Source: Halomonas sp. CH40
GTDB taxonomy: Bacteria > Pseudomonadota > Gammaproteobacteria > Pseudomonadales > Halomonadaceae
Direction: 5' to 3'
Assembly: GCA_041875495.1 (NCBI GenBank)
Contig: CP112982.1
Location: 992,001 to 1,056,000, forward strand
Length of the DNA: 64,000 bases
Made by a program: the position numbers and the translations under genes. The notes below the pieces were generated by a model. The model ran no database searches. It was given only the letters and a program-made list of their open reading frames with translations, and was not told the DNA's origin. Shown one piece after another: positions 16,561 through 40,147 of the stretch; position 1 is the first letter of the stretch, and each line of letters begins with the position of its first letter.

Positions 16561-16567
16561 TGTTCTT

Positions 16568-16759: not shown

Positions 16760-16833
16760 CTTACGGGAAGTCTACCCTCTTGGGGAAACAGCATTTGTTA
16801 AGGGGCTTGATTGGATGCCAGTTGGCGCTGTTA

Positions 16834-16995: not shown

Positions 16996-17051
16996 TAGAT
17001 ATAGAAACTTAGGCATGGGAAAGTCTATTTACCACACCGCGCGTAAAGCAT

Positions 17052-17095
17052 CGCCCAATCGGGCGGTGATACAAGCGCGCACCGCAACGCGGTGC
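17052..17095 (+). repeat. Left-end hairpins of the TnpB element
   Basis: Two hairpins lie side by side: CGCCC-AATC-GGGCG (17052-17065) and GCACCGC-AAC-GCGGTGC (17079-17095). Subterminal hairpins of this kind are what TnpA recognises in IS200/IS605 elements. Confidence 0.55.
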
Positions 17096-17134
17096 CCGGT
17101 TGATTTTGTTCCATACCCCTGATATTTTTCCAGT

Positions 17135-18259
17135 ATGACAAAGCGCGCCTACAAAGAACGGTTTTATCCTACTCCCGAGCAAGCTGGGCTGTTGGCGCAG
17201 TCGTTCGGGTGTGTCCGCTTTATTTGGAATAATACCCTGGCTTATCGCATCGACGCGTATCAACAGCGCGGTGAGTCGGTATCTCACGCCCACGCTGAAA
17301 AGCGTCTGGTGGGCTTAAAGGCTGAGTTTCCGTGGCTCAAGGATGTATCAAGTGTGATCCTGCAGCAAACGCTCCGCGATCAGAAGGCCGCCTTCGACAA
17401 CTTTTTCAACCCCAAGCTCAAGGCGCGGTACCCACGTTTCAAGAAAAAAGATGGGCGCCAGTCGATCCGGCTGACCAAAGCGGCGTTCCGCTATCGTGAT
17501 GGTGAGATCACTATCGCAAAAGCGAAGACGCCGTTACCCATCCGGTGGAGTCGTCCGCTGCCCAGCGAACCTTCCAGCATCACGATTTCACGCGATCGTG
17601 CTGGACGCTACTTCATCAGCTGCCTGTGTGATTTCGCGCCCGTAGCACGCCCGGTCACGCCCAAGACAGTGGGCATTGATCTCGGGTTGACCGACCTGTT
17701 CATCACCAGCGACGGTGCAAAGTCTGGGAATCCGCGCCACCTGAAACGCTACGAAGCGAAGCTGGCCTACTTGCAGCGCCGGTTGGCGAAGAAGCAGAAA
17801 GATTCCAGCAACCGCAACAAATACCGTCAGAAAGTGGCACGGCTACATGCCAAGATCGCCGACTGCCGCCGTGACGCCACCCACAAAGCGACCCGCGCAC
17901 TCATTAACGAAAACCAAGTCCTGTGCGTCGAGTCACTCAATATCACGGGTATGATCAAGAATAAACGGCTCTCTAAAGCCATTAGCGATGCTGGGTGGGG
18001 TGAGTTCGTCCGGCAACTGGAATACAAGGCCGCCTGGGCGGGGCGCCAACTAGTGAAAGTGAGCCAGTGGTTTCCCAGCAGCAAGCTGTGTCATGGCTGC
18101 GGCCACAAGGTTGAGAAACTGCCGCTGTCGCAACGTCACTGGCACTGCGAAAGCTGCGGCCACCCCATTGACCGCGACATCAACGCGGCCAGGAATATAC
18201 AAACCGCCGGGCTGGCGGGGTTAGCCTGTGGAGCGACCGGAGCGGGGGCAGCGGCTTAG
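17135..18259 (+). CDS. tnpB: RNA-guided endonuclease TnpB (IS605 OrfB)
   Basis: The 374-residue protein is an apparently intact TnpB. The RuvC-like catalytic residues are present: Asp182 (GIDLGLTDL), Glu266 (CVESLNI) and Asp348 (DRDINAARN). The zinc finger between the last two is complete (CHGCG and CESCG). The N-terminal RAYKERFYPTPEQ and the FVRFIWN-like segment are typical. Studied TnpB proteins use an RNA made from the element's right end to cut DNA and keep the element in place. The whole set of catalytic residues suggests activity. No tnpA lies nearby. Confidence 0.95.
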   Translation: MTKRAYKERFYPTPEQAGLLAQSFGCVRFIWNNTLAYRIDAYQQRGESVSHAHAEKRLVGLKAEFPWLKDVSSVILQQTLRDQKAAFDNFFNPKLKARYPRFKKKDGRQSIRLTKAAFRYRDGEITIAKAKTPLPIRWSRPLPSEPSSITISRDRAGRYFISCLCDFAPVARPVTPKTVGIDLGLTDLFITSDGAKSGNPRHLKRYEAKLAYLQRRLAKKQKDSSNRNKYRQKVARLHAKIADCRRDATHKATRALINENQVLCVESLNITGMIKNKRLSKAISDAGWGEFVRQLEYKAAWAGRQLVKVSQWFPSSKLCHGCGHKVEKLPLSQRHWHCESCGHPIDRDINAARNIQTAGLAGLACGATGAGAAA

Positions 18260-18400
18260 CCACTGTCTAGTGAAGGCGTGTGGAAGCAGGAAGGTTCTGG
18301 GGGTGACCTTGGAACCCTCGCCCAAAGCGCGAAGCGCGGCGGGCGAGTGTCAGCTTTCTCATGCCTGTTCGCTGTAATGCCCGCCGAGCAAGCCATGTGG
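18260..18400 (+). ncRNA. Candidate omega RNA / right end of the TnpB element
   Basis: Just after tnpB the DNA folds well: AAGGT/ACCTT and GGTTC/GAACC alternatives (18291-18316), then CTCGCCC/GGGCGAG (18317-18347) enclosing GCGC-GAA-GCGC. TnpB guide RNAs come from this position and end at the element boundary. Exact 5' and 3' ends cannot be fixed from one copy. Confidence 0.35.
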
Positions 18401-18402
18401 TG

Positions 18403-19569
18403 TTATCGCTCACCCAGTGATTCACTTAGTGTCTTGATCACCGGTTTGGTCAAGTACTCAAGCACCGTGCGCTGGCCGGTCTTGATTTCCACGGTGGCGG
18501 TCATGCCCGGTTGAATATCCAGTTGCTGCGCTGGCGCGGCACTAAATGCGCGGCCATCGGTGCGTACCCGTACGCGGTAGTAGGGCGCCTGATCCTGTGA
18601 CTGTTCATCGGTAACAGTATCGGCACTGATAAACACCAGCTCGCCGCTGAGGTCACCGTAGATGGTGTAGTCATAGGCGTCTATCTTGATGGTGGCTGGA
18701 TAGCCGGTGGATAAAAAACCAATATCCCGAGGACTGACCTTAGCCTCAATCAGCAAGTTGTCTTCCAGCGGCACAATCTCCATGACCTCGTCACCAGCGC
18801 GGTAGACGCCGCCAATTGTGGTAATAGCGATGTTCTTGATTACCCCACGCATGGGCGAATAAATCTCGGTCTGTGCCAGCACGCTGCTCCGTTGGGCGAG
18901 CGTCTGGCGAGCGGATTCGAGCTGCTGTACCGTCTCTGAGAGTCGTGATTGACTTTCCTGACGGCGTTCATTACGCGCGGCTGAGATACTTGACCCCAGC
19001 TCCGCCACCTGACGTTCCAGGCGCAGTAACTCCGAGCGGCTGACATCGCCAGATTCAACCAGCGGCTCGTTCATTGCCATCTCTTCTTCGGCCAGTGCCT
19101 GCATCTGTTCCAGCCAGCGTAATTCTTCGGCCAATGCCTGGCGGCTGCTTTCCAACAGGGCTTGCTGGCTCTTGCGGATCTCGGCGTAGTCATCCAGCAG
19201 GGGTGTAAAAGTGATATCTGTTTCCAGAAGTTCAGCGCGAAGACGCGCGGATGTGGCCGAGAGACTGGCGACCTCGGCACGGGCTTCCAGGTAGTTGGCC
19301 TCGGCGCGGGTGCGGTCAATGCGAGCTAGCGGCTGACCTGGCGTGACGATATCGCCTTCCTTCACCAGCAGGGCTTCGAGTACGCCGCCGTCCTGAGTTT
19401 GCACCACTTGGGTGCGTGAACTAGAAATCACAGTGCCGGGCGCGCGGGTGACTTCATTTAGTTCAGCCCACCAGGCCCAACTGAAAAAAGCCGCTAATAC
19501 CAGCAGTACCCCCCAGATAACGCGTCGTGAACTACGGTGGTCTTGAAAAAGCGAACGGGATTGGCTCAT
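18403..19569 (-). CDS. Type I secretion membrane-fusion protein (HlyD family)
   Basis: This is the periplasmic adaptor that links the ABC exporter to the TolC-like pore for secretion of the giant adhesin. The 388-residue product has a short cytoplasmic N-terminus, one membrane helix at about residues 17-33 (VIWGVLLVLAAFFSWAWW), a lipoyl-like half motif (GGVLEALLVKEGDIV), a long coiled coil (about residues 90-220), and the C-terminal HlyD signature region YRVRVRTDGR to GMTATVEIKTG. It begins 16 bp after the ABC gene on the minus strand and is the last gene of the operon. The TnpB element ends just beyond it. Confidence 0.93.
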   Translation of the reverse strand: MSQSRSLFQDHRSSRRVIWGVLLVLAAFFSWAWWAELNEVTRAPGTVISSSRTQVVQTQDGGVLEALLVKEGDIVTPGQPLARIDRTRAEANYLEARAEVASLSATSARLRAELLETDITFTPLLDDYAEIRKSQQALLESSRQALAEELRWLEQMQALAEEEMAMNEPLVESGDVSRSELLRLERQVAELGSSISAARNERRQESQSRLSETVQQLESARQTLAQRSSVLAQTEIYSPMRGVIKNIAITTIGGVYRAGDEVMEIVPLEDNLLIEAKVSPRDIGFLSTGYPATIKIDAYDYTIYGDLSGELVFISADTVTDEQSQDQAPYYRVRVRTDGRAFSAAPAQQLDIQPGMTATVEIKTGQRTVLEYLTKPVIKTLSESLGER

Positions 19570-19585
19570 AAAGTGTCATTCTCAA

Positions 19586-21817
19586 TCATACGTAATGCGT
19601 TGTTTTCGCATCAGAAGGCTGGGTTGTGTGAGGCGTGGTGCTGGCCTTGGTAGTGGCAGGATTACTTGATGAAGCACGCTTTTGCTGCATTGCCGCGAGC
19701 ACTTTATCGCGCGGGCCATCGTACACACGCTGGCCTTTATCCAGCACGATAATACGCTCCACGTGCTTGAGCACAGCTGTTTTGTGCGTCACCACTACCA
19801 GCGAGGATTCCGGTGGAATTTCCTGGAAAAGATGCCGCATCACCCGGGCTTCCAGGGTGGCATCCATGGCAGCAGTGGGCTCGTCGAGCAGCATGATACG
19901 CGGTTTGAGCAGTAATAGCCGAGTCAGTCCTACTAGCTGGCGCTGGCCGCCGGAAAGCCCGCGCCCGCCTTCGGCAATGGGCAGTGCGAGCCCTTCGGGA
20001 TGGTTGGCAATCACCTGATCCAGGCCGGTAAGCTGGCAGGCTTGGAGCACCCGCGAATCGCTGGGCGTGGGCAGCGCCAGGGTCAGGTTATCGCGCAGGG
20101 TGCCGTTGAACAGACGAACATCCTGGGGCAGGTAGCCGATATGCTCGCGCAGAAACGCCGGGGCCAGGTGCTGCATGTCCATGTCATCCAGGTACACGCT
20201 GCCGGAGGTCGGCTTGTAAAGCCCGGAGAGCAGCTTGATCAGGGTAGATTTCCCTGAGCCGACTGCGCCGATCACCGCCACGCGCTCGCCGGGGGCGATA
20301 CGCAAATCTTCCAGCGAGAGCGCGGGGGCCGATTCATGAAAGTGAAACGCGGCCTTGGTAATACTCACTTCTCCCCGGCACTGTTCGGGCACCACCAGGC
20401 GGGCATCGTGGTCGCGGTCACTGGGCATCGCCATGATGTTATCCAGCGCCTCCAGGGCGATGCGTGCGTGGTTCCACTGCATTACCATCTGCGGTAGCTG
20501 GGAAATCGGCGTGAGCGCACGCCCAGCGATGATCGAGCAGGCGATCAGCGCGCCCATGGTCAGCAAGCCCTCAGTAATGGCAAACGCCCCTACCGCAATC
20601 ATGCCCACATAGTTGGCCTGTTGCACCGCCTGGCTCATATTGGTGGCGCGGGTGGAGAGCTTGCGCAGCTTCAGGTCACTCTGGGCGATAGTGGCAGTAA
20701 GCTCACGGTGGCGATCAGCCATCTTCCACTCACCGCCGGCGGCCTTCACCGACTCGATTCCGTCAATAGCTTCAATTAACAGGCCGTTCTTCTGGTTGGA
20801 TTCCTGCATATGTTCGGCGGTAATCGCCTTGATCTTGCGTAGAAAGAACAGGCTGGAAAGTAGCGCCACCGGAATCATCACCAGTGGCACCAACGCTACC
20901 GGCCCGCCAATCATCGCAATCACCCCGACAAAAAACAACGCCAGCGGCGCATCGGCCAGCAGGTAAAGTGTTGAAGACGTCATGAAGTTGCGCACGGATT
21001 CGAAGTGGCGGATTTGCGAAGCAAGGGTGCCCACGGTAGCCGGGCGCGCATCCATGCGGATATCCATTGCCTTACCGAAGAACACCTCCGAGAGCTCCAA
21101 GTCGATCTTCTTCGATGCAAGATCGACGATATAGGCGCGCGACTGCTTCATCAGAAACTCCAGCGCAATCGCCACTGCCACACCCACACTCAGCACCCAT
21201 AGGGTGGAAAACCCCTTGGTAGGCACCACGCGGTCATAGACCTGCATGGTGTAGAGCGCTGTGAACAGCCCCAGCAGGCTGATCACCACGCTGGCAATGA
21301 TGCCTTCAACAAAGACCCGCTTATGCTGGCCCAGCGCATAGCGAAACCACGCCTTGGCCGTTTGTGGGCGCGGTGCAGAGCGCGTGCTGCCATATTCCAG
21401 GGTAGGCGTCAGGTGTAGCAGCTGGCCCTTGGCGGCCTGCTCCGCGGTGAGCTCCGTGGCGTTGCCCTCACTATCCTCAGCGCTGAACACGCCATTGCTC
21501 TGGCGGCCACGGATCAGTAGCGCGTGCTCGTTATCTGCCGCTACCCACAGCAGGGGGTAGTCGCCGCGTTGCACCTTACGCAGTGCCAGTGGCGTTACAC
21601 CTCCTTCAGGGAAGCGAGCTTGCCACCTTTCACAGGCCTGTCTATCACGTGCCAAAGTGGCTAGTTCAGCGCCGTCGCGGCCATGTTCAAGCAATTCGAA
21701 GCGAAATGCTGGCACAGCCTCGCCTTGTAGAGCGGCAAGCCGAGATAGCAGCTTGGCCAGAGTCACGTTAAAAGTGGCACTCTGCGAAGACAGTGCAGCA
21801 GTGTCAGCGTCATTCAT
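19586..21817 (-). CDS. Type I secretion ABC transporter (LapB/RtxB type)
   Basis: The 743-residue protein has an N-terminal C39-like domain (about residues 20-150), which lacks the catalytic Cys and so binds rather than cleaves substrate, a six-helix membrane domain (about 165-460), and an ATPase domain with Walker A GAVGSGKST near residue 520, signature LSGGQRQ and Walker B IMLLDEP. This is the pattern of exporters for RTX adhesins. Its start overlaps the end of the outer-membrane gene by 8 bp, so the two are coupled. It has an unusual Ser/Thr/Ala-rich C-terminal tail. Confidence 0.95.
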   Translation of the reverse strand: MNDADTAALSSQSATFNVTLAKLLSRLAALQGEAVPAFRFELLEHGRDGAELATLARDRQACERWQARFPEGGVTPLALRKVQRGDYPLLWVAADNEHALLIRGRQSNGVFSAEDSEGNATELTAEQAAKGQLLHLTPTLEYGSTRSAPRPQTAKAWFRYALGQHKRVFVEGIIASVVISLLGLFTALYTMQVYDRVVPTKGFSTLWVLSVGVAVAIALEFLMKQSRAYIVDLASKKIDLELSEVFFGKAMDIRMDARPATVGTLASQIRHFESVRNFMTSSTLYLLADAPLALFFVGVIAMIGGPVALVPLVMIPVALLSSLFFLRKIKAITAEHMQESNQKNGLLIEAIDGIESVKAAGGEWKMADRHRELTATIAQSDLKLRKLSTRATNMSQAVQQANYVGMIAVGAFAITEGLLTMGALIACSIIAGRALTPISQLPQMVMQWNHARIALEALDNIMAMPSDRDHDARLVVPEQCRGEVSITKAAFHFHESAPALSLEDLRIAPGERVAVIGAVGSGKSTLIKLLSGLYKPTSGSVYLDDMDMQHLAPAFLREHIGYLPQDVRLFNGTLRDNLTLALPTPSDSRVLQACQLTGLDQVIANHPEGLALPIAEGGRGLSGGQRQLVGLTRLLLLKPRIMLLDEPTAAMDATLEARVMRHLFQEIPPESSLVVVTHKTAVLKHVERIIVLDKGQRVYDGPRDKVLAAMQQKRASSSNPATTKASTTPHTTQPSDAKTTHYV

Positions 21818-23126
21818 TTAGGGTCGTGCTCCTCATTAAAGGGCGAAAGGCACCGGTCAGTGCCTGTAGGCGGAACTTGGCCAGCAACAGAGGCATCTCG
21901 ATATCGGTTTTCAGGTAGTAGGCTTGGGCTTTCTCGCCTTGGGCGTTGAGCACATCAAGCCAGCTTTTCTTGCCCACGCGAAATTGGCGCAGGTAAGACG
22001 CCACCATGGCCTCGGAGCCTTCGACAATGGCCTGCATGGGGCCACGCTGAGTATCAAGCGCCTCAATCTCAGCCCAGAGCGATTCTACCTGCTGACGTAG
22101 TGCCCGGGCCTGGTCATCCAGGGCATCCTGCGTGGCCGCCCGGCGAGCGCTGGCGGCACTCACGGTGGCACGGCTGGAAAGCCCGGCGCCGCTCTCGACG
22201 TTCAGGGTCAGATAGACCTCGCCTTCATCGCCGCGCAGGTTTTCGCGGTCATTCAGGGTCTGACGATATCCGAGTGCCAGGGTGGGTAGCGTTTGTGCCC
22301 GTGCCAGAGTGATATCCGCTGAGCTTTGCTCACGAGTAGCGGCCAGCCGCGCGCGCTCCGGGGAGAGGCGCAGGGCGGCTTCCATCAGCGCCTCCAGCGG
22401 CTGCTCTATCAGCGCAATATCCGCCGGAGGTGTGAGAATGGTAAGCGGGCGCCCCAACGAACGGGCCAGCGCTGTGCGCGCCTCAGCCAGCTGGCGCTGA
22501 GTCTGGATACGCTGAGTGGTCGCGCGCTGCAATCGCGACGCGGCCAGCACGGCATCAGAGGCGGGGCTGATCTCTGCCGCTACGCGGCGCTCAATCATTT
22601 CCAGCAGGCGCTGATGCTCGGTTTCATTATCCTGAGCTACCGCCAGGCGGTCGGTCAGGCGCAGGGTCTCGAAAAATGCCTCGCCGGTGGCCAGCAGCAC
22701 CTCGCGCTGGGCCTGGGCCAAGGCCGCTTCGGCTACCTGCTCGCCAGCGGCGGTACGATCAATCTGCCCGCTGAGACGGCCACCGGCCCACAGCGGTTGT
22801 TCAACCCGGGCGGTGAGCGCTACGCCATCGTCCAGCGCCTCGCTTTCCAACCCCGCGGTGGGGAAGCGCCCCCACTCGGCGGCATCACGCTCGAAGCCAG
22901 CGGCTTCACGCTCGCCCTGGCGCTGGCGCACCTGGGGGTGGCGCGCCAGTGCCTCCTGCAGCGTGGCGGCTAAATTAGAGCCCGGCGCGGCAATGATCGG
23001 GCTTGCCGCTAAGTGGGCCTGGGCGTGCGCCTGGGGCGCGGCAAGCCAAAGCCCTATGGCCAAACCTCCCGCACCTAATAACAGTGTGCCGCACCCGAAG
23101 GCGCGGCGAAGAGAAAACCACAACAC
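21810..23126 (-). CDS. TolC-family outer-membrane channel of the type I system
   Basis: The product is a TolC/LapE-like outer-membrane channel protein of about 438 residues. After a signal peptide (helix GCGTLLLGAGGLAIGLWLA, cleavage near AHAQA) come the two outer-membrane-efflux repeats, with LQEALARHPQVRQRQGE and SPERARLAATREQSSADI as the matching helices. I chose GTG 23126 (MLWFSLRRAFG) because it gives a clean signal peptide and has CGAGG 6 bases upstream; a longer frame reaches 23240 but adds residues unlike a signal peptide. It lies between the adhesin and the ABC gene. Confidence 0.9.
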   Translation of the reverse strand: MLWFSLRRAFGCGTLLLGAGGLAIGLWLAAPQAHAQAHLAASPIIAAPGSNLAATLQEALARHPQVRQRQGEREAAGFERDAAEWGRFPTAGLESEALDDGVALTARVEQPLWAGGRLSGQIDRTAAGEQVAEAALAQAQREVLLATGEAFFETLRLTDRLAVAQDNETEHQRLLEMIERRVAAEISPASDAVLAASRLQRATTQRIQTQRQLAEARTALARSLGRPLTILTPPADIALIEQPLEALMEAALRLSPERARLAATREQSSADITLARAQTLPTLALGYRQTLNDRENLRGDEGEVYLTLNVESGAGLSSRATVSAASARRAATQDALDDQARALRQQVESLWAEIEALDTQRGPMQAIVEGSEAMVASYLRQFRVGKKSWLDVLNAQGEKAQAYYLKTDIEMPLLLAKFRLQALTGAFRPLMRSTTLNE

Positions 23127-23138
23127 AGATAACCTCGT

Positions 23139-23159
23139 TGGCGGCCAGAGTGGCCGCCA
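23139..23159 (-). promoter_or_regulatory. Stem-loop between adhesin and tolC-like gene
   Basis: The 9-bp perfect stem TGGCGGCCA/TGGCCGCCA with a 3-base loop lies 1-2 bases before the ribosome-binding site of the TolC-like gene on the minus strand. No U-run follows, so it is more likely an RNA-processing or attenuation structure than a terminator. Confidence 0.45.
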
Positions 23160-23269
23160 TTGGTGTGTTTGATTGTTGATCGGATGATCGTATGCGCAGA
23201 AAGCCTTTAACGGCGCAGGCAGGGCAGGGTAACCGCCCAACCTGCGCTCGTTCAGGTGCTTAGCTGTAC

Positions 23270-26200
23270 TTAGGCATAGATAGGGCCTTGTGCTTCAGGC
23301 AGCCAGTTGCTGCTACCGAAGTCGTCATCCCCCAGCGTGTGCAGCAGCGCCAGCTGGTTGAGCTCGCTGCCCTCGATGGTGGCATCGTCACTGCTGGACT
23401 GGGTATGCGCCCAGATCGCCGTCTGGCTGGCATCGTCGGAGGCGGTGACCGCAAACAGCGTGGTATTCAGCTCGCCGTTGTCATCGCTACCGAGCTGGGC
23501 GTCCGGGAGGCTAAACAGCTCGTTGAGCAGCGTGGCCACCGCTTCAGCGTCGCCCAGTTCTGCGGCCGCGACTGAAGCACTCGTCGGAGTAGATAGCGTA
23601 CTGGCAAGGCTTACCTCAGGGAATACGATCGCATTCTGGTTGGCATTGCTGGAAACGCTGGCAAACTCCGTGGTGCTAAGATCCAGAGAGTTGTACTCAC
23701 TAATAGCGCTAACGTCGCCTTCCACGGTGGATTCCAGCAGTGCCCCTTCCAGCTGAATCACATCCTGGCCGAGCTGGAAGTTGTGCACCACGTCCGGCGC
23801 CTCGTTGCCCAACGCCACCACCGTGACCTGCGCTTCACCTTCGCCATCGCCCCAGTCGAAGGGCGCAAAGCCTTTATCGTCCTGGGCGATCGCATCATCG
23901 CTGACGGCGTCTTCCGTGGCGTTTTCGCCGGCGATGCCGGCATCACCGTCTGTGCTGCCATCGGCGATATTGATGCGGCCGTTCAGTTCCTCGTCATCGC
24001 GGCTTTCGTAGGTGCCGTCATCATTATCATCCGTGCCGCCGGAGAGGTAGGTGGTCTCCAGGCCATCATCCACGTACTGGCCCGGGTCGGAGCCGAAGAG
24101 GTCGCTATCGCCCTCGGTAGTGCCATTTTCGTTTGTGGCGGGTGAGTCGTTTTTGGCGTCATAGCCGCTATCTGGATTGGTGACGGTCTGGTTAACGCCC
24201 TCTTCGCCGGTTGCCGCGGGGTCGCCGTTGAGGGCGGCGTTACCGTTCTCACTGCTGGCTAGCCCGTTAATGCCAAGCTCGCCCGCGGTCTGGGTGTAGC
24301 CGTTTTCCGGGTTGGTGAAGGTCTGGGTCGCGCCTTCGCCTTCACCGGTCAGGGCTGTGTCACCGGCCAGGGTTGGGTCGGTGTTGGCGCCGCTCGCGTT
24401 ATCGCTAACAGTGTCACCGGGGTTGGTCCAGCGTTGGTCTTGCGTGCCACCGGGGGCAATGCCCTGGCGCAGCTGGTCGTTGATATCTAGCGTGCCAGCA
24501 AACTCATTCGCTGGTGCGGGCATGAGCGTATTGCCGTTGGTATCGGTGAAGGTGTAATCATTCGCCATGGCCGCCTCGCTGCCACCATCGCCTTCGCTCT
24601 CGCTGTAGCTCAGCACGCCCGGCGCACGGCCGGTCGCGGCGCTGCCTTCGCCGGTTTCATCGTTGATGGTGGCGGTATCGTCACCGTCGATGAAGGTGAG
24701 GTCGCCCGCTTGAGGTTCTCTAATTAGATAAAAACCATCAGCGATCGTGTCATTGATGCGTACTTTGATTTCTTGCTCACTGACATCGCCCAGTACATCG
24801 GCACCGTTACGAGTCGCGGTCAGATTCAGCGGTGTGAAACCAAACTCTTCCGCACTGATCGTGGCAGTGGCGACGTTGCTGTGATTGTCGTCAAGATCCT
24901 GCTTAAGGCCTTCTACAATGGCACTGAGCAGCGTCTCGCTCGCTTCGTTGTCTGTCACGGTGTAGCTCAAGGTGACATCACCGAGTGTAAGCGTAATGGT
25001 ATCCTCAGCTACAAGGTTATTAAATCCGCTGTCATCAAAAAGTACTGATACTTTTTGCGCGCTGCTCTTCTCGGGATCTTCCACCTCATAGCTGAAGCTG
25101 CCTACGTTCAGGGGGTCTTCGCCTGAATCTTTGGCATTCACCAGTAGGCGGTCACCGCTGATGGTAACGGCGTCATCGCCTTCGGCGAGTACATCCACGA
25201 TTGCCTGTGCCTGAGTGGCTCCATTGCTGCCATCGCGGGCATTCAAAATGGCCTGCTTGAGGTTGGTAAGGGTTTCGGCCTTGTCAGCGCCGGAGTCGGC
25301 GCTGATGGTGGTACCGTCGATTTCCAGGCTTACTTGGGCACGGTTGTCCTCGGCATCCATGCGGTCATCCTCAAATGCCACACTGCTGACATCCACCTCG
25401 GTGACCTGGCGCACACCCTCAACACTCAGGCTGGCTTCGGTGATATTGATAGCGCCGTAGCCATTGGTGGCTTCAGCAGCCGTGAAGGTGACCGCGTAGG
25501 GCACACCATCCTCGCCACCGGAAAGCGTGGCATCGCCGATTTTCTGAATCAAGGATTTGCCAACATCACCCTCGAATTCAGTTTTAGTGCTTAGTAGCTG
25601 GTTATCTTGATCCGTATCTACCAACTCCATGGAAAAAACCACAACCTCAAATGGCTCGTTGCTTTCCTGTTTTATGATGAGTTCATTACTGGTCTCATCA
25701 ATTGTGATCGTCAGGTCCGTGTTGTTTTCAACGTCTGTCTTAAGCCGTGACAGTGTTGGAGCACTGTCAGAACTGCTCTTAAATTGTCGTGGGAGACTGT
25801 TTTCGTCTTTAGGTGGCAAAGTAAAGGTACCCAGCCAGTTCGAGTTACCATCAATATCAACGACATCGTCATTTTCATCCTTGAATTGCAGCCGCAGCAC
25901 AGGCTCTGGATTCAGCAAGGTGTCGATTTCATTGTTGAGAGCATCCAGCGTGCCTGCGGCGTTACTATCGATCATATCAACGCTGATCTCTTCACCATTC
26001 ACCGTCAGGCCAAGGGTGCCGCCGCCGAAGTAATCGGCATCATCGCTGGAGAAGTTGACCGAGGCTTGTTGCGTCTGCTCTTCGACGCTGAGCGTGGCGT
26101 CGGTTACATCAAAGGTATTGACCCCACCTTCGGCGGCAGTGAAGGTAAGCTTGCCGTCTTGCTGGGCGACGGACTCGATAATGACGGAGAGATCGCCCTC

Positions 26201-35200: not shown

Positions 35201-36283
35201 ACGCAGATCTGCGGTACCTTTCTGAACTTCGATGGTATTGAAATTGGAAAGGTCGCTTTTCTCGGAGATGACCACAAAGTCCAAATTATCTTCAAAGCTG
35301 AAGATAATTTGCTGGACTTTATCGCCCATACCTGTGGTGTTGAGGGTAAGGTTCTTGCGGTCGGCTTTACCCTCCTGCACATCATTGATATCAAATACGA
35401 CCGCTTCAACGCTATCTGGCTGGCCACTGAAGTTGATTTCAGCACCGTCGTCGGCGCGGATACGCAGCGACTTGACAGTATCACCGTCACCGGTACTACG
35501 GTTGGTAGTGAAATCGGTAATACGGAACTCGACGTTCTGGTTGGCGCCACCCCGCGATAAAGTGGCACCGTCCAGCTCGTTTTCGCCATCACCATCACCA
35601 TCGCGAGCACTGCCAGTGAAGTCGATACTGATAGGGCCTGTGGCTGTGCCAGAAAAAGTGACAACGCCGTCGTCTTCGTTGTTGCTATCGCCTGTGTCTG
35701 AATCGGTTCTGGTATTGGGCTGTACAACTTCAATAGTAGGGAGTTCGGTTTCAGAGGCGTTGCTATCATTGTCACGAGTGGCGATTAGCGCTCCGCCTAC
35801 ACCCACCAAGCCTAAGCCGAGCAGGGCAGGGTTGATGCCAGCACTGACACCGGAGCCTGCTTCGAGCAGTTTGGCGGCAGCTTCGTCATCGCTCTCTTCA
35901 GCGGCAGCACTACCGCCAGCGGCTGCAGTTCCCTCTGGGTCGGCTGGCATAACCTCCTGTGTGGATGGCTCTGAGGAAGTCTCGTTTTCATCTGGAGCAT
36001 TCTGCTCCTTAGAAGCTTCTTTCTCGTCTTTTTCGCTTATATTATCTTGAGTATCAGTATGTTGCGTTTTATTTTTTGTCTCAATTCCCGTCTCAGAAGC
36101 ATCATCTGGCACACTATCAAGCGCAATTATAGGCTGCTCGGGCATCTGTGATAGATCCTCCCCACCAGCAATCAGTATATCCGGCTGTTGTTGAGAGGCA
36201 TTTATCGAGGTATCTGAAGAAGTGGCAGCGATTGAGGAGTTAGTGCCTGGGGAGTTGATGTCTGACGTGTTGTTTGCGGCCAT
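23270..36283 (-). CDS. Giant type I-secreted repeat adhesin
   Basis: This approximately 4,340-residue protein is the substrate of the adjacent type I system and should be displayed on or released from the cell surface for adhesion and biofilm. Order: Ser/Asn/Glu-rich N-terminus; a hydrophobic Gly-rich segment (LLGLGLVGVGGALIA) near 35.8 kb; a beta region; seven 68-residue coiled-coil repeats (34.6-33.1 kb); a bacterial Ig-like domain (SGTAEAGAEVTLLIEG, about 32.6-32.3 kb); five more repeats (32.1-31.05 kb); many degenerate beta modules (30.7-24.7 kb); an Asp/Asn/Gly-rich linker; and a C-terminal 'bluetail' secretion region (FAVTASDDASQTAIWAH, LALLHTLGDDDF). No Cys-rich region is seen. ATG 36283 has AAGAGA 8 bases upstream; ATGs at 36316 and 36358 lack a site. 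It has no clear LapA-type N-terminal retention domain. Confidence 0.95.
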   Translation of the reverse strand: MAANNTSDINSPGTNSSIAATSSDTSINASQQQPDILIAGGEDLSQMPEQPIIALDSVPDDASETGIETKNKTQHTDTQDNISEKDEKEASKEQNAPDENETSSEPSTQEVMPADPEGTAAAGGSAAAEESDDEAAAKLLEAGSGVSAGINPALLGLGLVGVGGALIATRDNDSNASETELPTIEVVQPNTRTDSDTGDSNNEDDGVVTFSGTATGPISIDFTGSARDGDGDGENELDGATLSRGGANQNVEFRITDFTTNRSTGDGDTVKSLRIRADDGAEINFSGQPDSVEAVVFDINDVQEGKADRKNLTLNTTGMGDKVQQIIFSFEDNLDFVVISEKSDLSNFNTIEVQKGTADLRSVRVADDVEYVVNSEVVLTYNQFVTATGLVSSTGLGRLTLEVDNQAQLEELVTLLSDKIIIGFGDNEPGEAQNITIEAAEGADIEQQAIDDVIAAIREASFPSVTKLTGQLRDLEETVSEIRGDESNLAAGTPLGTLVSLSNGLAALSSQLDTLTGDGEGSVSGQIASAIGQRSTESSAATGLWADIEALNSTLVSRLEAQIDALDDDLQAQIDGNDSDITGNATDLGELQNALSALEGLVGDNATAAAENLASAQNTLQGAIDTLAEQLNTSVSNLQGQIDGNDSDIAGNAAELGDLQNALSALESVVGENATAAAESLASAQNTLQSAIDTLAEQLNTSVSNLQGQIDGNDSDIAGNAAELGELQNALSALESVVGENATAAAESLASAQNTLQGAIDTLAEQLDSSVNDLQGQIDGNDTDIAGNVTKLDELQNALSALEGLVGDNATAAAENLASAQNTLQGAIDTLAEQLNTSVSNLQGQIDGNDTDIAGNVTKLDELQNALSALESVVGENATAAAESLASAQNTLQSAIDTLAEQLNTSVSNLQGQIDGNDSDIAGNAAELGDLQNALSALESVVGENATAAAESLASAQNTLQGAIDALAEQLDSSVNDLQGQIDGNDTDIAGNVTKLDELQNALSALEGLVGDNATAAAENLASAQNTLQGAIDTLAEQLNTSVSNLQGQIDGNDTDIAGNVTKLNNLTTLVGIITDAAGDDSTAGAELNVLQDQLAVLQEQVASALSLVGPLISQFEVNPENGTVRVKTAQTSDEDTSNGVRIYSGSSLIGSSLASDELDNPIFTFDSEAGADDEALFVFTPRENIEVYDISISIRATTATAEQPGADGVPSNTLYSFDNVNPQAPVITSGEITSLDATHVISGTAEAGAEVTLLIEGEGETADNVLGTVVANQNGQWSITALLQGENTLKAIALDPAGNPSTASGASDTLAFTVNADWSGDSPLILAASEVFNADSNTFSDDFTAQIAGYNPTTIPLQINGELTLEQAVAIAQAGLDNLGETVATAINTLKSNLQAQIDGNEGDIATNAAELGDLQNALTALEGLVGDNATAAAENLASAQNTLQGAIDALAEQLNSSVNDLQGQINGNDSDIAGNAAELSDLQNALSALEGLVGDNATAAAENLASAQNTLQGAIDALAEQLNSSVNDLQGQINGNDSDIAGNAAELSDLQNALSALEGLVGDNATAAAENLASAQNTLQGAIDALAEQLNSSVNDLQGQINGNDSDIAGNAAELGDLQNALSALEGLVGDNAATAAENLASAQNTLQGAIDALAEQLNTSVSNLQGQINGNDSDIAGNAAELGDLQNALSALEGLVGDNATAATENLASAQNTLQGAIDALAEQLNTSVSNLQGQISQLDQELQNDVEDLEAVNVKLNELNETVQSLQSLATGDFGDVQTEVEKLLKDVKDLQPQIDDIVKPELIQRNELDNRVELDEYESTAIRVELGEGDDFLNSSDADTEIVGGLGADTINLTYVDESPDKIVYQSVNDGKVVPKTTLNFSDEPSDYREGSQLNITINGKEYTYTVSSDDGDTDIVDDLVEDELAKFKEYLVERTVQKPDNTLVGIVISNNIDGFTEILSEGNVITQADLAADGSYTVPSGNLFITINDLLMLAMDGASSEIAAITALKGGGDRVYLDQDPIFNFEGSFDPFDGALGTEELPLLSLSQNLVEDLLARSYLENVLEVEDYSEATADQRDEARSEAASKVSDYIVGEGGALTDIRIDGNTLTLYGQAGEPLDVAAGGENTAAIVNNGLVTRFDVTFPDQPEGNWPTETNGDNTTEFTRKLRVNIDVDGVTTVVAVDVVYDVPDNPDNPNPVASVEALAKAVKNTSALDGVIEDVMVDGLTMTFIGAQIPGTDDGAPTFTVDSAAIDQNGVQQETVLTFSENGDDYYEGGTLSATIAGETITADMVAGSAAESLAALQQAINDATAEGGVLHGVLESAKLPSTDINALTVANTTTQLILTAATEEPDPLEATAALSFPGEAQQATFSLENAEQYDQLSDGTWVDGAEVYFNGGKAYVTITPTDGGDPITVSAEMQPESVRVDTSKIAPDAKITNIGAWQVTLADGSDANITNAAFSVSDKPQTLAGMAEFFEEQPGIASADITGAVLLIKPEFGVSIVPPNGKVRFNDDSPTAFVGQDVLSSDEMTSQALVDEINKLAEGTPAQVVIKAEDFESIFGEGVTADSGGIELSQPASSYLNSLSVALLDPEDGYFTTDFFQVTLTDGSYTVDTSGSIEFEGSVPDQFTGVKGLVDFLNSVGIPNFEAGTNEDGDLVLSSLEKGANQYLTFRIETPEGATFRNGVGKDFVLEGASLDDGTVTLTAAEPGKQTFEISDVTLDYQGVKQKATFSLDTTENYTQLSDGTDLTDTGIEGAPVYYEGGKAYVTIKEEADANATLSGVAARETTVSVDMTGLVPPPLVLTLAGKDSEPLALNMQADNPGRTTFNSAESKREDVLVSSADTLEEYLDDLKDTNSIESYEFKDGVVELLVSPELISSFSEGVTFQLIQFSDTLSFGGHVLSASNGKDTVELSQGASLNSFVSADPAAATSQALVDEINKQITGVVAEAESPKIVIKQSEFEDVFGTGAFDLQDVSRIGGSTTGGLSEVLNISWSVDGEEKSFVLEGNSKNSLQVDLNGFDLESSVAAKDDFLGVNDLVSYLNDLGLPDGVTAQIDDSGNFVLTNELVGSGSNLTFSLKVGDQPDTLNTILDEQGSDETFASEPNDVLSTLLEGATLNDDGEIILTSKDKGQDLFEVSDVSLDYQGVKQIATAEFSTDDADYYADGELAVMITPQGENGPGAPVTVKAAMAPTTPTAEPLNIVANIEADDLKNVYLFDGDTEDTLAFELKIGEKIYGREDFDQYLGNINTSITTGGSSPYAHILAGWIESLDEVTSVSTKKYNDDTNPGFEVSFKEGIPQASFVATAGLIGTLDEKQALDSFFFEANTTFATSAETALDNLLDAINAQLGTEGDLSVIIESVAQQDGKLTFTAAEGGVNTFDVTDATLSVEEQTQQASVNFSSDDADYFGGGTLGLTVNGEEISVDMIDSNAAGTLDALNNEIDTLLNPEPVLRLQFKDENDDVVDIDGNSNWLGTFTLPPKDENSLPRQFKSSSDSAPTLSRLKTDVENNTDLTITIDETSNELIIKQESNEPFEVVVFSMELVDTDQDNQLLSTKTEFEGDVGKSLIQKIGDATLSGGEDGVPYAVTFTAAEATNGYGAINITEASLSVEGVRQVTEVDVSSVAFEDDRMDAEDNRAQVSLEIDGTTISADSGADKAETLTNLKQAILNARDGSNGATQAQAIVDVLAEGDDAVTISGDRLLVNAKDSGEDPLNVGSFSYEVEDPEKSSAQKVSVLFDDSGFNNLVAEDTITLTLGDVTLSYTVTDNEASETLLSAIVEGLKQDLDDNHSNVATATISAEEFGFTPLNLTATRNGADVLGDVSEQEIKVRINDTIADGFYLIREPQAGDLTFIDGDDTATINDETGEGSAATGRAPGVLSYSESEGDGGSEAAMANDYTFTDTNGNTLMPAPANEFAGTLDINDQLRQGIAPGGTQDQRWTNPGDTVSDNASGANTDPTLAGDTALTGEGEGATQTFTNPENGYTQTAGELGINGLASSENGNAALNGDPAATGEEGVNQTVTNPDSGYDAKNDSPATNENGTTEGDSDLFGSDPGQYVDDGLETTYLSGGTDDNDDGTYESRDDEELNGRINIADGSTDGDAGIAGENATEDAVSDDAIAQDDKGFAPFDWGDGEGEAQVTVVALGNEAPDVVHNFQLGQDVIQLEGALLESTVEGDVSAISEYNSLDLSTTEFASVSSNANQNAIVFPEVSLASTLSTPTSASVAAAELGDAEAVATLLNELFSLPDAQLGSDDNGELNTTLFAVTASDDASQTAIWAHTQSSSDDATIEGSELNQLALLHTLGDDDFGSSNWLPEAQGPIYA
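31045..32110 (-). repeat. Second block of 204-bp adhesin repeats (five units)
   Basis: Five tandem 204-bp units encode 68-residue repeats with the pattern QGQINGND-DIAGNAAEL-DLQNALSALEGLVGDNAT-AAENLASAQNTLQGAIDALAEQL. Units at 31494, 31698 and 31902 start exactly 204 bp apart and are nearly identical. Most use 'INGND', unlike the 'IDGND' of the other block. The heptad-like spacing of Leu and Ala predicts a coiled coil. The last unit decays into a different coiled coil (NVKLNELNETVQSLQ). Confidence 0.95.
33090..34590 (-). repeat. First block of 204-bp adhesin repeats (seven units plus a partial)
   Basis: Seven full 204-bp units and a degenerate eighth encode the same 68-residue repeat. Two unit types alternate: those with 'ALEGLVGDNATAAAENLAS' and those with 'ALESVVGENATAAAESLAS'; a second independent variation is 'NAAELG' versus 'NVTKLD'. 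The mosaic of these variants suggests unequal crossing-over or gene conversion. The reverse strand holds a long open frame here, which is a by-product of the repeat. Confidence 0.95.
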
Positions 36284-36358
36284 ATTGATATTCTCTTGAG
36301 TAATCGTGGATGCCATGAAAGCGGCGACTGTCGTATACCAAGTGGTACCAGTAGGCAT

Positions 36359-36603
36359 CAGTTATTTAGCCAGCGTGAAGCAGTACCTGAGACAGTATTT
36401 AGTAAAATTTAGTGTCATGAATGTAAGCAATAAGCCGGGTGGTTAATACAGTCAAACACCGACTTTTTGCGACGAAATCCGACATTTTTGAATAAAAATT
36501 AACTTTTTGACCTTTAACCTATTATTCGCCGATGATACGAAGCTTTCTTTTGCTTTTGATTAAGAAAATAGCAATTAAGAAAATAATTAATGAGAGACTT
36601 TAA
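36359..36603. promoter_or_regulatory. Divergent control region of the adhesin and the regulator cassette
   Basis: This 245-bp AT-rich region separates the adhesin start from the divergent response regulator. It contains three copies of AC(A)TTTTTG starting at 36462, 36482 and 36502, exactly 20 bp apart, and two ATTTAGT words 10 bp apart (36397 and 36407). Sites on one face of the helix at this spacing suit binding by OmpR-type regulators, such as the products of the flanking cassette. Confidence 0.5.
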
Positions 36604-37299
36604 ATGTCAAGGCGTCATGTATTAGTGGTTACCGATGATATTGCTCTGTTGGAAACATTGGTGACCTTTCTCAATACACAGGGGTTGTGTACGGATGGCT
36701 TAACATCTGTAGCGGGGCTGCCCGCCTGGCGGGAAACGCATGATGTTGATACCGTTGTAATAGATCTGGATATTGCGGCTCTTGGATCTGATTGGCTGGA
36801 ACAGCAAACTCATTGGCTGCAACCCCTCAGTGTTATTGCATTAAGTAAACACGAAACGCCACAGTTACGTATTCGGGCTGTTCGCGCTGGGGCAAACAAT
36901 TATCTGAAAAAGCCGTGTGATAAAACGGAGCTTTACCATCTTATTGAGAACTTGGCAGCGAGGCGGTTAGCAAAAAATTTGATGGTGCCACAATGGAAAC
37001 TGGATCTTGTAACGTCTCGGTTAGTGGCGCCAAACCAGTGTGATGTCAAAGTCACTCCTCTACAGAAGCAGTTATTGATAGCGCTGGGTCAGAAGCCCGG
37101 CACGTTATGCACTAAAGCGGAAATGGCGGCTGCCATTGGTCAAGCGGTTGAGCATTATGATATGCGTCGACTGGAAGTGCTGATGCGTCGGCTACGCAAT
37201 AAAGTAAGTGCTCAGACAGGATTGATACTACCAGTGGATACGGTTCATGGTAGGGGATATTGCCTGACAGCGGTGTTGATAATGGAGGAAGCTTTTTGA
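36604..37299 (+). CDS. Response regulator with winged-helix output (adhesin cassette, first)
   Basis: The 231-residue protein has a receiver domain with Asp11-Asp12, phosphoacceptor Asp54 (VVIDLDIA) and Lys in YLKKPCD, then a C-terminal winged-helix domain ending DMRRLEVLMRRLRNKV and DTVHGRGYCL. The receiver is somewhat degenerate: the usual Thr/Ser after beta-4 is Ser in ALSKHE. It lies divergent to the giant adhesin and its 3' end overlaps the start of the sensor kinase. Control of the adhesin genes is the obvious inference but rests on position. Confidence 0.88.
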   Translation: MSRRHVLVVTDDIALLETLVTFLNTQGLCTDGLTSVAGLPAWRETHDVDTVVIDLDIAALGSDWLEQQTHWLQPLSVIALSKHETPQLRIRAVRAGANNYLKKPCDKTELYHLIENLAARRLAKNLMVPQWKLDLVTSRLVAPNQCDVKVTPLQKQLLIALGQKPGTLCTKAEMAAAIGQAVEHYDMRRLEVLMRRLRNKVSAQTGLILPVDTVHGRGYCLTAVLIMEEAF

Positions 37300-39329
37300 T
37301 CAGGCAACGCCTTTTGGGTGCTTTTCTTCACGTTGTTATATTCATATATTTGACAGTTGGGAGCGGTACAAGTATTGCTGCTGAGCCGCCAGTGATTAAC
37401 GAGCATCTTAATTTACTGGACTATATAAGCTTCTATGTTGATCCAACGGGTGAGGCAACCTTTGAGCAGGTAAGTAAAGGTTCGCTTGCTAACGCTTTCA
37501 TACCGACAGATGAAGCAGGCCATAGTATCAATGCTGGCTTTACCACGGCAGCCTATTGGGTGCGTGTAGACCCTGCCTTCGTGCGTGCACAGCAGGGGCG
37601 CGAATGGCTATTGGAGCTTGGCTATTACTATCTGAATGACGTGCGCGCCTATATTGGCGATCAGCCGATGATTCAGACAGGGAGCCTTTATCCGTTTGAT
37701 TCTCGACCAGTGCCGCATAGGCATTATGTCTTTCCTATTGATGAAAAAGTTGCCGATGATCGCATTTTGTTGCGCATCGAAACGGATCAGATCATGACGC
37801 TGCTGTTAAATGCCTGGGATGTCTCGACTTTCACCTTGGCCACTCAGCGTGATGCTTGGACAAAAGTGCTGTATTTCGGGGGCCTATTGTCGCTGGTGCT
37901 GTTTAATCTGATGCTATTCAGCGTGCTGCGCGAGCGCAGTTTTTTGCTGTATTCGCTGTTTACACTCTCCATCGGCATGACAGTGGCTGCTTCAAACGGT
38001 TTTGCTCGCATGGGTCTGTGGCCTGAGTGGCTCCTATGGGATCACATCGCCGAGATGGTTTTTTACTGTGTCGCGGGTACGCTAGGTGTGCTGTTTACCC
38101 AGACATTTCTCAGAACGTCTGTGTATGCGCGTGGCTTTTATCATGCCATGTCAGGATTCGCCGTCGGGTATCTGGTGTTTTTGGCCCTGATTGTCTGGGG
38201 AGCAGTAGTGCATCAGACGCTGATTCGTATCTGGACACCGCTGGTCATTTTTATTCTTATTTCGGGCGTTGTGGTGTTGTGGTCGGCTATTGTGGTCTAT
38301 TTCCGGGGGCATCAGGCAGCCCGATTTTTTATTCTTGCCTGGGCGGTACTATGGATAGGGGGTCTGATCGCCGTATTGCGCGGGTTTGAATTGCTTCCCA
38401 CCAATATATTTACTGTGTACGCCATTCAAATTTGTTCTGCCCTTGAAATGATCTTGCTCGCATTATCGCTGGCGGACCGTATGCACCTTGATCGTCAGGC
38501 GAAGGAACGCACGCAGCAAGCATTGATAGAGAGCGAGCAACGTCGCCTGGCTGTTTTAAGTGTCAGTGAGAAGCGGCTTGAAAAGGAGGTCTCGCAACGT
38601 ACGGCAGAGCTCTCAACGGCGCTGGATACGGAGCGCTTGTTGCGTGCTCGCCATCAGCGCCTCAATGCGATGATTTCACATGAGTTTCGTAATCCCTTGG
38701 CGATTATCAGCAGCCAGATAAGTTTGTACCATAAAGAACACGCCAGAGGGATTCACAATATGACAAAACGCTTGCGAGCAATTGAAAGCGCCACCCAGCG
38801 TCTTCAAGTGCTGGTACAACAGTGGTTGCGCAGCGATCGTTTGCACCATAGTGAATTGATTCCTCAGAAACAGCCGTTGGAACTCGCAGCGTATCTGGAC
38901 GAACAGCGCGCCATGTTACAACAGCTGCATATGCATCATTCGCTCTGTATCGAAATAGATGACCAGCCAGTATGGGTCAAAGTCGACGCAGAGTTGCTGG
39001 ATGCAGTGGTATTCAATCTGGTTGAAAACGCCTGTAAGTACTCACCTGCAGGCACGACAGTCACCATCAAGCTCAGGGCTATGGAGATGTATGCAGACAT
39101 TGCCATTATTGATCAAGGTGTTGGCATCCCAGAGCATCAGCAAGAGATGATCTGGGACGACTACTGCAGGGGCGAGGCTCAGCGGCTTGCCAGTGGTTTG
39201 GGGTTAGGCTTGTCGTTTGTCAGACGGATAGTAGATCTTCATCAGGGCGATATTGTGTTGGAAAGCGTGTTTGGGCAAGGTAGCTGTTTCTGTACGCGCT
39301 GGCCGCTTCTCGACGATATGTCTACTTGA
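37296..39329 (+). CDS. Hybrid-sensing histidine kinase with 7TMR-DISM input
   Basis: The product is an inner-membrane sensor kinase of 677 residues. After a signal-like helix (AFLHVVIFIYLTVG) comes a periplasmic 7TMR-DISM extracellular domain (about residues 35-170, with AYWVRVDPAF and DVRAYIGD), seven membrane helices (about 180-390), a coiled coil, the HisKA domain with His462 (MISHEFRNPL), and an HATPase domain with N-box NLVENACKYSP, G1 DQGVGIP and G2 GLGLGLSFV. TTG 37296 is chosen because GGAGGA lies 6 bases upstream and it overlaps the regulator stop (TTGA). 7TMR-DISM inputs often bind carbohydrates or similar ligands. Confidence 0.92.
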   Translation: MIRQRLLGAFLHVVIFIYLTVGSGTSIAAEPPVINEHLNLLDYISFYVDPTGEATFEQVSKGSLANAFIPTDEAGHSINAGFTTAAYWVRVDPAFVRAQQGREWLLELGYYYLNDVRAYIGDQPMIQTGSLYPFDSRPVPHRHYVFPIDEKVADDRILLRIETDQIMTLLLNAWDVSTFTLATQRDAWTKVLYFGGLLSLVLFNLMLFSVLRERSFLLYSLFTLSIGMTVAASNGFARMGLWPEWLLWDHIAEMVFYCVAGTLGVLFTQTFLRTSVYARGFYHAMSGFAVGYLVFLALIVWGAVVHQTLIRIWTPLVIFILISGVVVLWSAIVVYFRGHQAARFFILAWAVLWIGGLIAVLRGFELLPTNIFTVYAIQICSALEMILLALSLADRMHLDRQAKERTQQALIESEQRRLAVLSVSEKRLEKEVSQRTAELSTALDTERLLRARHQRLNAMISHEFRNPLAIISSQISLYHKEHARGIHNMTKRLRAIESATQRLQVLVQQWLRSDRLHHSELIPQKQPLELAAYLDEQRAMLQQLHMHHSLCIEIDDQPVWVKVDAELLDAVVFNLVENACKYSPAGTTVTIKLRAMEMYADIAIIDQGVGIPEHQQEMIWDDYCRGEAQRLASGLGLGLSFVRRIVDLHQGDIVLESVFGQGSCFCTRWPLLDDMST

Positions 39330-39375
39330 TGAGTCGTGTACACTGGTCAATAACGCTGTAGCTGTGGTGTTCATT

Positions 39376-40089
39376 ATGCAACCTTCTTCTATTCCTTTAT
39401 GTTCGATTAACGTGCTTGTTGTTGAAGATGAACAAGACCTTCGCGAAGCGATAGCCGATTATCTCTCTCTTGATGGTATGCAAGTCATTAGTGCAGCGAC
39501 GTTAGAGCAAGCAGAGCACCACATGGCACATTTTTCGGTAGATATACTGGTGCTGGATCTTGGGCTGGGTGAAGATGATGGCCTTGTCTGGATTCAGCAA
39601 CGGCGAGATATATTAAGCCAATGTGGCTTGATTATGGCCACCGCGCGTGGACAGCAAGAGGATCGTATTCTAGGGGTGCAGGCAGGTGCAGATGTTTATC
39701 TGACAAAACCGTTTGTCCTTGAAGAACTAAGTGTATTGATCCGTAATCTCTATCAAACGTTGAGTGCTGATAGCGCATCGCCATGTTGGATCTTGTTATA
39801 TATCCTGAGCTGTTTGAACGCGCCCAATGGCAAGCATGTCAAGTTGAATTTTTCGGAAAAGCGTGTGCTTGAAATGCTGGAGCAATATGCGCCTGATGTG
39901 TGTCCCCGTGATAACTTAATAGAAGCTTTGGGCGAGGATGTAGATACCTTTGACCCTAAACGTCTTGAAGTGATGTGCCGGCGTCTCAAACAGCGTGTTA
40001 AAAAACATACAGAGTATGAATTGCCCATCGAGACGGTTCATGCCCAAGGTTATCGCCTGATAGCTCCAATATTGATTGAGAGAGGCTGA
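39376..40089 (+). CDS. Response regulator with winged-helix output (adhesin cassette, second)
   Basis: The 237-residue regulator follows the kinase by 46 bp. Its receiver has Glu17-Asp18, phosphoacceptor Asp61 (LVLDLGLG), Thr in MATARG and Lys in YLTKPF. The output domain ends KRLEVMCRRLKQRV and ETVHAQGYRL, clearly related to that of the first regulator, so the two may be ancient duplicates. A segment CWILLYILSC between receiver and DNA-binding domain is unusually hydrophobic. The start has no strong ribosome-binding site; the upstream open frame overlaps the kinase end. A terminator follows. Confidence 0.9.
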   Translation: MQPSSIPLCSINVLVVEDEQDLREAIADYLSLDGMQVISAATLEQAEHHMAHFSVDILVLDLGLGEDDGLVWIQQRRDILSQCGLIMATARGQQEDRILGVQAGADVYLTKPFVLEELSVLIRNLYQTLSADSASPCWILLYILSCLNAPNGKHVKLNFSEKRVLEMLEQYAPDVCPRDNLIEALGEDVDTFDPKRLEVMCRRLKQRVKKHTEYELPIETVHAQGYRLIAPILIERG

Positions 40090-40147
40090 TGCTATCTTGC
40101 CTGCTACCTTTAGCTGAAGCTGGGTGCTGAGTTCAGAATGATAACTC

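Follow-up and report, generated by a model that had tools for sequence, protein, structure and literature searches.

The locus described here raises the question of what controls the gene for a giant protein and its exporter when a histidine kinase and two response regulators are encoded right next to them. The control of giant adhesins is mostly discussed in terms of c-di-GMP and LapD/LapG, and an earlier sequence-only reading had proposed that the adjacent kinase cassette would represent a different logic. The window, i.e., the whole 64,000-nt stretch of DNA analyzed, lies in a 3.67-Mb single-contig genome (G000), and coordinates are positions within the window unless a genome or contig is named. 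The features needed for the argument are:

18403..19569, minus strand: HlyD-type membrane fusion protein, 388 aa (TIGR01843, 337.9 bits, cut-off 208.65; PF13437)
19586..21817, minus strand: LssB/LapB-type type I secretion ABC transporter, 743 aa (TIGR03375, 736.5 bits, cut-off 693.1)
21810..23240, minus strand: TolC-type outer membrane channel, 476-aa open reading frame (PF02321, E 1.3e-31; TIGR01844, 145.5 bits, below the cut-off of 225.15)
23270..36358, minus strand: giant protein, likely a secreted adhesin, 4,362-aa open reading frame (from the frame, its repeats and its homologs)
36359..36603: shared control region, 245 bp, 33% G+C (from composition)
36460..36490, plus strand: operator-like array with CGAC half-sites at 36460, 36470 and 36480 (from sequence comparison)
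36604..37299, plus strand: RR1, receiver and winged-helix regulator, 231 aa (PF00072, PF00486)
37296..39329 (open frame from 37260), plus strand: LadS-like 7TMR-DISMED2/7TM histidine kinase, 677 aa from the likely start, as in a 677-aa database copy (PF07696, PF07695, PF00512, PF02518)
39376 (likely start)..40089 (open frame from 39253), plus strand: RR2, receiver and winged-helix regulator (PF00072, PF00486)
16215..40145, left edge approximate: block absent from G1320, the closest relative found, which carries the flanks (from alignment)

The Pfam scan covered ten genes of the window in total. Open reading frames, Pfam and NCBIfam gave the gene content and strands of the adhesin, exporter and cassette as previously described. 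The ABC, HlyD and TolC genes are linked and all lie on the strand of the giant gene, while the RR1-kinase-RR2 cassette is divergent from this operon, one 245-bp control region being common to both. The G+C content of this region is 33%, compared to 56% for the window; a promoter scan gave three hits there versus 1.4 expected and a terminator scan none versus 0.3 expected. We take LapB to be a member of the LssB-type exporter subfamily to which the transporter was assigned.

The previous description of a type I adhesin of about 4,340 residues held in that a single open frame is present, of 4,362 aa; that the product is a type I-secreted adhesin is likely, and we infer this role from its size, its repeats and the linked exporter genes. 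The protein has no Cys and is strongly acidic (Asp and Glu 17.5%, Lys and Arg 3.6%). Coiled-coil-type repeats of 68 residues occupy about 600-1100 and 1420-1800; copies at about 663-1071 and 1488-1760 are near-identical, with the motif LQGQIxGNDxDIAGN. Against Pfam and NCBIfam, coiled-coil-type matches were the only ones obtained: no adhesin, RTX, Ig-like or retention family was found, nor any recognized C-terminal type I secretion domain or RTX repeats, and one isolated RTX-like motif occurs at residue 1874. A database search returned at least seven homologous proteins including the query; among the matches listed, the best relative is 57% identical over 36% and the next is a Marinobacter protein. 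Similar 68-residue repeats may be behind some of the distant matches. The most hydrophobic stretch is a glycine-rich segment at residues 175-193, and the giant protein of another genome of our set, G784, has a comparable segment near residue 161; these segments could be retention plugs.

The sequence-only reading had noted that no LapG is encoded in the window, and indeed the sole match to PF06035 in the 3.67-Mb genome is at 3,079,656, about 2 Mb away, where it adjoins other adhesins rather than the window giant. The 633-aa product of the gene beside it has LapD as its best NCBIfam match (379 bits, below the model cut-off of 1,020). In this region (G000:C1:3062565-3108600), two LapA-type adhesins (3,175 aa and 6,336 aa), both scoring above cut-off for the retention module, flank the LapG and LapD-like genes, one on either side of LapG; the larger carries TIGR03661, and both adhesin genes are preceded by genes with the size and order of exporter genes (judged from size and order alone). 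The LapA retention module NF033682 has three matches in the genome, none of them in the window, and none was obtained when the giant protein was scanned directly. The organism thus encodes the window giant separately from its Lap-type adhesins. Control of the latter by LapD/LapG was rejected, as it has no retention module and LapG is about 2 Mb off. The proposal that the logic of control is new because Lap is absent is not supported: outside the window, the same genome encodes LapG, a LapD-like protein and two adhesins of LapA type.

The kinase has DISMED2 (PF07696), 7TM (PF07695), HisKA (PF00512) and HATPase (PF02518) domains, each above cut-off, with H, N and G boxes intact by eye and no receiver domain in the Pfam scan. 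Its structure model (mean pLDDT 81.4, pTM 0.59) consists, on visual reading, of N-terminal strands followed by seven long helices. By sequence, the RetS periplasmic structures matched weakly (3jyb, E 0.06), and in a Foldseek search with the model, kinase cores led the best 50 rows, with no sensor match among these. A protein search yielded at least two relatives at 79-80% identity and at least 35 at 31-39%, nearly all with the same four domains. Among the matches listed, the bit scores of full-length matches drop from 311 to below 170 after these relatives. In a 54-row tree they fall in a clade that holds 47 of the rows (support 93/98, just under the starred threshold of the program). At the class level, nine of 369 genomes had a match at E <= 1e-80 (best foreign 375 bits versus 857); at the order level there were two in 399, both already in the set, and viral contigs gave six weak kinase-core matches.

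The gene neighborhoods of the clade members were then compared. The genome scan gave at least eight members, to which 399 genomes of the family of G151 added G784 and G837, and surroundings were read for the window and nine members (about 19-50 kb per side, less at contig ends). Outside this count of ten are G157, whose contig is 3,128 bp long, G237 and G691, which the tree does not place in the clade, and G896, G734 and G629 (surroundings read, not on the tree); L010 and L027 (G078) are absent from the tree as they had no frame with the required motif. A giant-protein export locus lies beside the kinase in seven of the ten readable members (window, G151, G152, G153, G155, G158 and G784), among the matches listed. 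In the other three, G837, G154 (Polynucleobacter) and G156 (Spiribacter), no giant gene was found in the stretch read, so that related genomes with a cassette away from an adhesin, which the sequence-only reading would have counted against itself, do exist. Two regulators around one kinase were seen in the window only; the other nine have one regulator per kinase.

The giants are of several kinds. G151, G152, G153 and G155 are Limnohabitans and another Comamonadaceae, and there the kinase-regulator pair is divergent from genes for SapC, TolC, HlyD, GAF/HlyD, M50-like/HlyD, a SecA-like ATPase and a LEPR-XLL giant (LEPR group). These export genes were assigned by domain scan in G152 (L029), with an M50 match short of its cut-off, and for SapC in G151, and by likeness and order in the others. 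LEPR-XLL matches are above cut-off in all four genomes; the open frames reach 14,209 aa (G151) and 14,731 aa (G155), and are cut by contig ends at 6,176 aa (G152) and 1,410 aa (G153). LEPR-XLL frames of about 14,200-14,700 aa were seen at G151:C2, G155:C94 and G158:C4 (L125, L131, L208), preceded by an operon that encodes SapC, TolC, a SecA-like ATPase and three proteins of HlyD type, of which one has GAF and one is M50-like. G784 follows the plan of the window: its kinase-regulator pair is divergent from genes for TolC, an ABC transporter that matches LssB best (607 bits, short of the cut-off), HlyD and a giant of 4,589 aa that has Ca_tandemer repeats. In G158, two kinase-regulator pairs are divergent from the gene for a giant of 3,322 aa that includes one RTX stretch; on their other side, an FG-GAP/Ca_tandemer giant of 6,414 aa is encoded. 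G152 nearly duplicates G153, which leaves as separate lineages the window, the LEPR group, and G784 paired with G158.

Giant genes were also seen beside more distant kinases. A second 7TMR kinase-regulator family adjoins them at G158:C15 (L035), 7193-9822, and G152:C56 (L211), 13373-16220, the G158 copy having four CAAC half-sites at 10-bp spacing. A weaker relative of the window kinase in G734 (L163, G734:C126, 1-6812) is separated by about 0.9 kb from an open frame that runs off the contig end after 1,273 aa.

The control regions were found to contain a recurrent candidate operator of tandem half-sites with a basic spacing of 10 bp. Besides the window, arrays occur at six further giant-operon control regions, one of them at a locus without an adjacent cassette. 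The CGAC words are 10 bp apart in the window, 21 bp in G151, 20 bp in G152, G153 and G155, and 10, 21 and 10 bp in G784. The word was picked by eye from these same regions, with only G158:C4 and G837 being out-of-sample, and the shuffling results must be read with this choice in mind: none of 2000 shuffles reached the CGAC pairing of the window or of G784, and between 2 and 17 of 2000 reached that of the remaining four. A repeat test free of any chosen word gave p 0.007 for the window and 0 of 2000 for G784; G151 (p 0.05) and G155 (p 0.03) were modest, and G152 (p 0.31) and G153 (p 0.22) did not stand out. CGACATT preceded by CGAC at 10, 11, 20 or 21 bp was found at eight places on both strands of 922,046 bp (the window and most neighborhoods, leaving out G151:C36 and the genus stretches), namely the seven giant-operon control regions and one G+C-rich stray; pair counts were 10 versus a mean of 1.45 in 20 shuffles. 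Relative to the giant operon, the array is on the other strand in each of the seven control regions.

TCCGACATTTTT occurs once in the window versus 0.25 expected with one mismatch allowed. In six whole genomes, the exact pattern CGACNNNNNNCGACATT was found once each in G000, G158, G154 and G156, three times in G784 (one at the known site) and not at all in G837; its sole match in G000 is the window control region. As the reversed control pattern has seven matches in G000 versus one, the evidence lies in the place of the match and not in the count. A search for triple arrays in the 399 genomes of the family of G151 gave 16 places in 15 genomes versus eight (manual count) for the reversed control, most spacers of these 16 being G+C-rich. 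No array was found near the cassettes of G154 and G156, and the G158:C15 control region, on the contig that carries the sole full-length clade kinase found in that genome, has CAAC repeats and no paired CGAC.

At G158 C4:115134-115160, three half-sites 10 bp apart precede the LEPR operon, between SapC and a divergent gene unlike any two-component gene. This locus and its G155 counterpart align at 83-89% as far as the array, and the alignment resumes past it; where G155 has 3.4 kb that encode kinase and regulator, G158 has 266 bp. A giant operon can thus carry the array without an adjacent cassette, and the difference may reflect gain in G155 rather than loss in G158. In G837 (L156), a triple CGAC array (ending CGACAAT) lies by the start of a PAS-MCP (chemotaxis receptor) gene, with kinase and regulator genes downstream on the same strand. 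Since no giant was found in the stretch read, the G837 array is tied to regulators rather than to giants.

Both window regulators have the receiver plus Trans_reg_C winged-helix make-up of the OmpR family, and are 32% identical to each other. The clade regulators have a common winged-helix signature around YDxRRLEvlvRRLRnK...LPxETVHxxGYxxtA, from which G158_RRb (a second-type regulator) and the outgroup G237 deviate. Of the nine clade regulators, seven are closer to RR2 than to RR1, one (G158_RRa) is equally close to both and one (G154) is closer to RR1. By eye, RR1 and RR2 both have the canonical receiver residues. Just two homologs of RR1 above 40% were found (71-72%); both have Gly for Ser at the receiver Thr/Ser position and one has Asn for an acidic receiver residue, while the recognition helix is nearly unchanged. 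The receiver thus looks degenerate in these two homologs, and from their loss of the Ser/Thr we infer that RR1 may be a partner that binds without phosphorylation. One RR1 homolog and one kinase homolog both come with a longest contig of 5,244 bp, which suggests the same gene order there.

The distribution of the block in relatives was explored next. Among 41 genomes of the genus, G1320 was taken as the closest relative found because its copy of the flanking aldehyde dehydrogenase is the best foreign match (98% identical); its assembly is 89% complete. In a plasmid collection, the best match to this dehydrogenase was the Halomonas sp. PA16-9 copy, at 79%. G1320 aligns at 88-96% with window positions 1-3930, 4999-15024, 15467-16214 and 40146-40376, after which the dehydrogenase follows, and about 160 bp stand for window 16215-40145. 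In G129 and G1314 the match to the window stops near 15.0 kb, close to the dehydrogenase; G125, G1333 and G1317 have other genes at the corresponding place, and no match to window 16990-40145 was found in the 20-kb stretches of the six relatives. Being absent from G1320, the block (about 16.2-40.15 kb) is, on this alignment evidence, a unit that would have been gained in the lineage of the window or lost in the others. When the block ends were compared by script, no word of at least 9 bases, direct or inverted, was common to both. A lone TnpB gene (IS200/IS605 type) is present at 17135-18259, near the left edge. A third OmpR-type regulator gene at 15475-16224, just outside the block, was counted outside the module as G1320 has the same gene.

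The C-terminal half of the adhesin was found at E <= 1e-10 in one of 151 family genomes, its own. Kinase matches at E <= 1e-40 were present in 22 of the 151 (own included), the best foreign one, covering mostly the sensor half, scoring 167 bits versus 1,556 for self, and no close kinase was found among the other 150. Vertical inheritance within the family was rejected on these weak kinase matches and on the restriction of the adhesin C-half to its own genome among the 151.

Taken together, the gene order, the kinase domains, the array, its recurrence at giant operons and the absence of the block from the closest relative favor a model where the block is probably a transferable two-component switch for giant surface proteins, acting through the predicted CGAC operator. 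The periplasmic DISMED2 domain of the kinase would sense an outside cue, for which the analogy to LadS and RetS suggests calcium or a glycan. The kinase would phosphorylate RR2, which could then bind the tandem half-sites as OmpR-family regulators do with direct repeats spaced by about one helical turn. RR1, having the same kind of DNA-binding domain, would likely bind the same array without phosphorylation and tune or compete with RR2. The regulators at the 36460-36490 array would turn on the adhesin-exporter operon and the cassette itself, activation being our choice of direction; the division of labor between RR1 and RR2, the ligand and the direction of control are guesses. For the broader proposal, we see an even chance that a mobile module of CGAC array, LadS-like kinase and winged-helix regulator serves giants whatever their fold or export route. 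This module would have been linked separately to type I coiled-coil, Ig-like type I and LEPR-XLL giants (frames up to about 14,700 residues, with a SecA-like/HlyD/TolC operon), would act in trans where array and cassette are apart, and would have been joined in the window by a second regulator whose receiver is decaying.

One could argue that only the kinase cassette is controlled through the array, by autoregulation, the adhesin having co-arrived on one element and the real targets of the regulators being elsewhere. The G837 array, which precedes MCP, kinase and regulator genes with no giant in the stretch read, fits this idea, as does the window block differing as one piece from the closest relative. 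We nevertheless consider it unlikely: an array precedes the G158 LEPR operon without an adjacent cassette, the cassette is repeatedly found next to giants unrelated in type and export route, the array keeps one orientation relative to the giant operon in seven of seven loci, and exact CGACNNNNNNCGACATT is nowhere else in G000.

Alternatively, the cassette might be a repressor, RR1 and/or RR2 keeping a costly giant operon silent as long as the kinase senses no surface or ligand. An array between divergent genes is where a repressor could also sit, and RR1 looks phosphorylation-independent, as a standing repressor could be. In G151, however, the last half-site is 17 bp before the kinase-side TATAAT (manual count), i.e., at the place of the -35 box, a position typical of activators. 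The analogues PprB and RstA also activate their adhesins (PMC3510237, PMC12758282), and repression appears quite unlikely. That the adhesin belongs to the c-di-GMP LapD/LapG retention circuit of the organism, the kinase being incidental, seems highly improbable: the genome does encode LapG, a LapD-like protein and two LapA-type adhesins, and the window transporter is of the LssB/LapB subfamily, but the window giant has none of the three retention-module matches and LapG is about 2 Mb away on the contig. A two-component switch remains the preferred model.

How does this predicted switch compare to known systems? LadS is a hybrid kinase that feeds Gac/Rsm; the window kinase differs from it in having no receiver domain and in being paired with OmpR-type regulators beside a likely target. 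The window kinase has the periplasmic DISMED2 and 7TM sensor architecture of LadS and RetS, and the DISMED2 pocket of LadS is reported to bind calcium (PMC7695008). In Pseudomonas aeruginosa, PprB controls the large type I secreted adhesin BapA and its exporter and shifts bap promoter DNA in EMSA (PMC3510237), BapA being one part of a wider PprB regulon with CupE fimbriae and Flp pili. The window resembles PprAB-BapA in that a response regulator goes with a large type I adhesin and exporter, the control being predicted in our case; it differs in having the cassette divergent from the giant operon in the same block, a 7TMR-DISMED2 sensor and relatives with unrelated giants. In E. coli O157:H7, calcium is the cue and RstA the activator for OI-28, an island for a type I secretion/RTX adhesin (PMC12758282). 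Here also a two-component regulator goes with type I adhesin genes, as is predicted for the window, whereas a linked 7TMR kinase cassette and CGAC array are not reported for OI-28 in the sections consulted. With LapA-LapD-LapG (PMC6890996), the window giant has in common an LssB/LapB-type exporter; it differs in having no retention module or linked LapD/LapG, and its control is predicted to be transcriptional rather than by proteolytic release.

Two-component control of type I adhesins is already known from PprAB-BapA and RstA-OI-28 (PMC3510237, PMC12758282), and the earlier suggestion of a new logic of control is not supported on that ground either. The proposed control link itself fared better: it lost the novelty drawn from the absence of Lap and gained the related kinase-regulator pairs at giant export loci elsewhere, with a common operator-like array. 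In the open-access literature, we found nothing joining 7TMR-DISM, adhesin and type I secretion and, among the papers listed, no linked kinase module recurring with unrelated giants and keeping a common operator. What is new here is that the clade kinases recur at giant export loci of unrelated kinds, together with a common operator-like array. The array offers a defined site of about 30 bp for testing the control claim, and G158 C4, with its array and no adjacent cassette, is a natural test case for control in trans. If true, a portable kinase-regulator-operator module would provide a route to find and predict the switches of giant adhesins from sequence alone.
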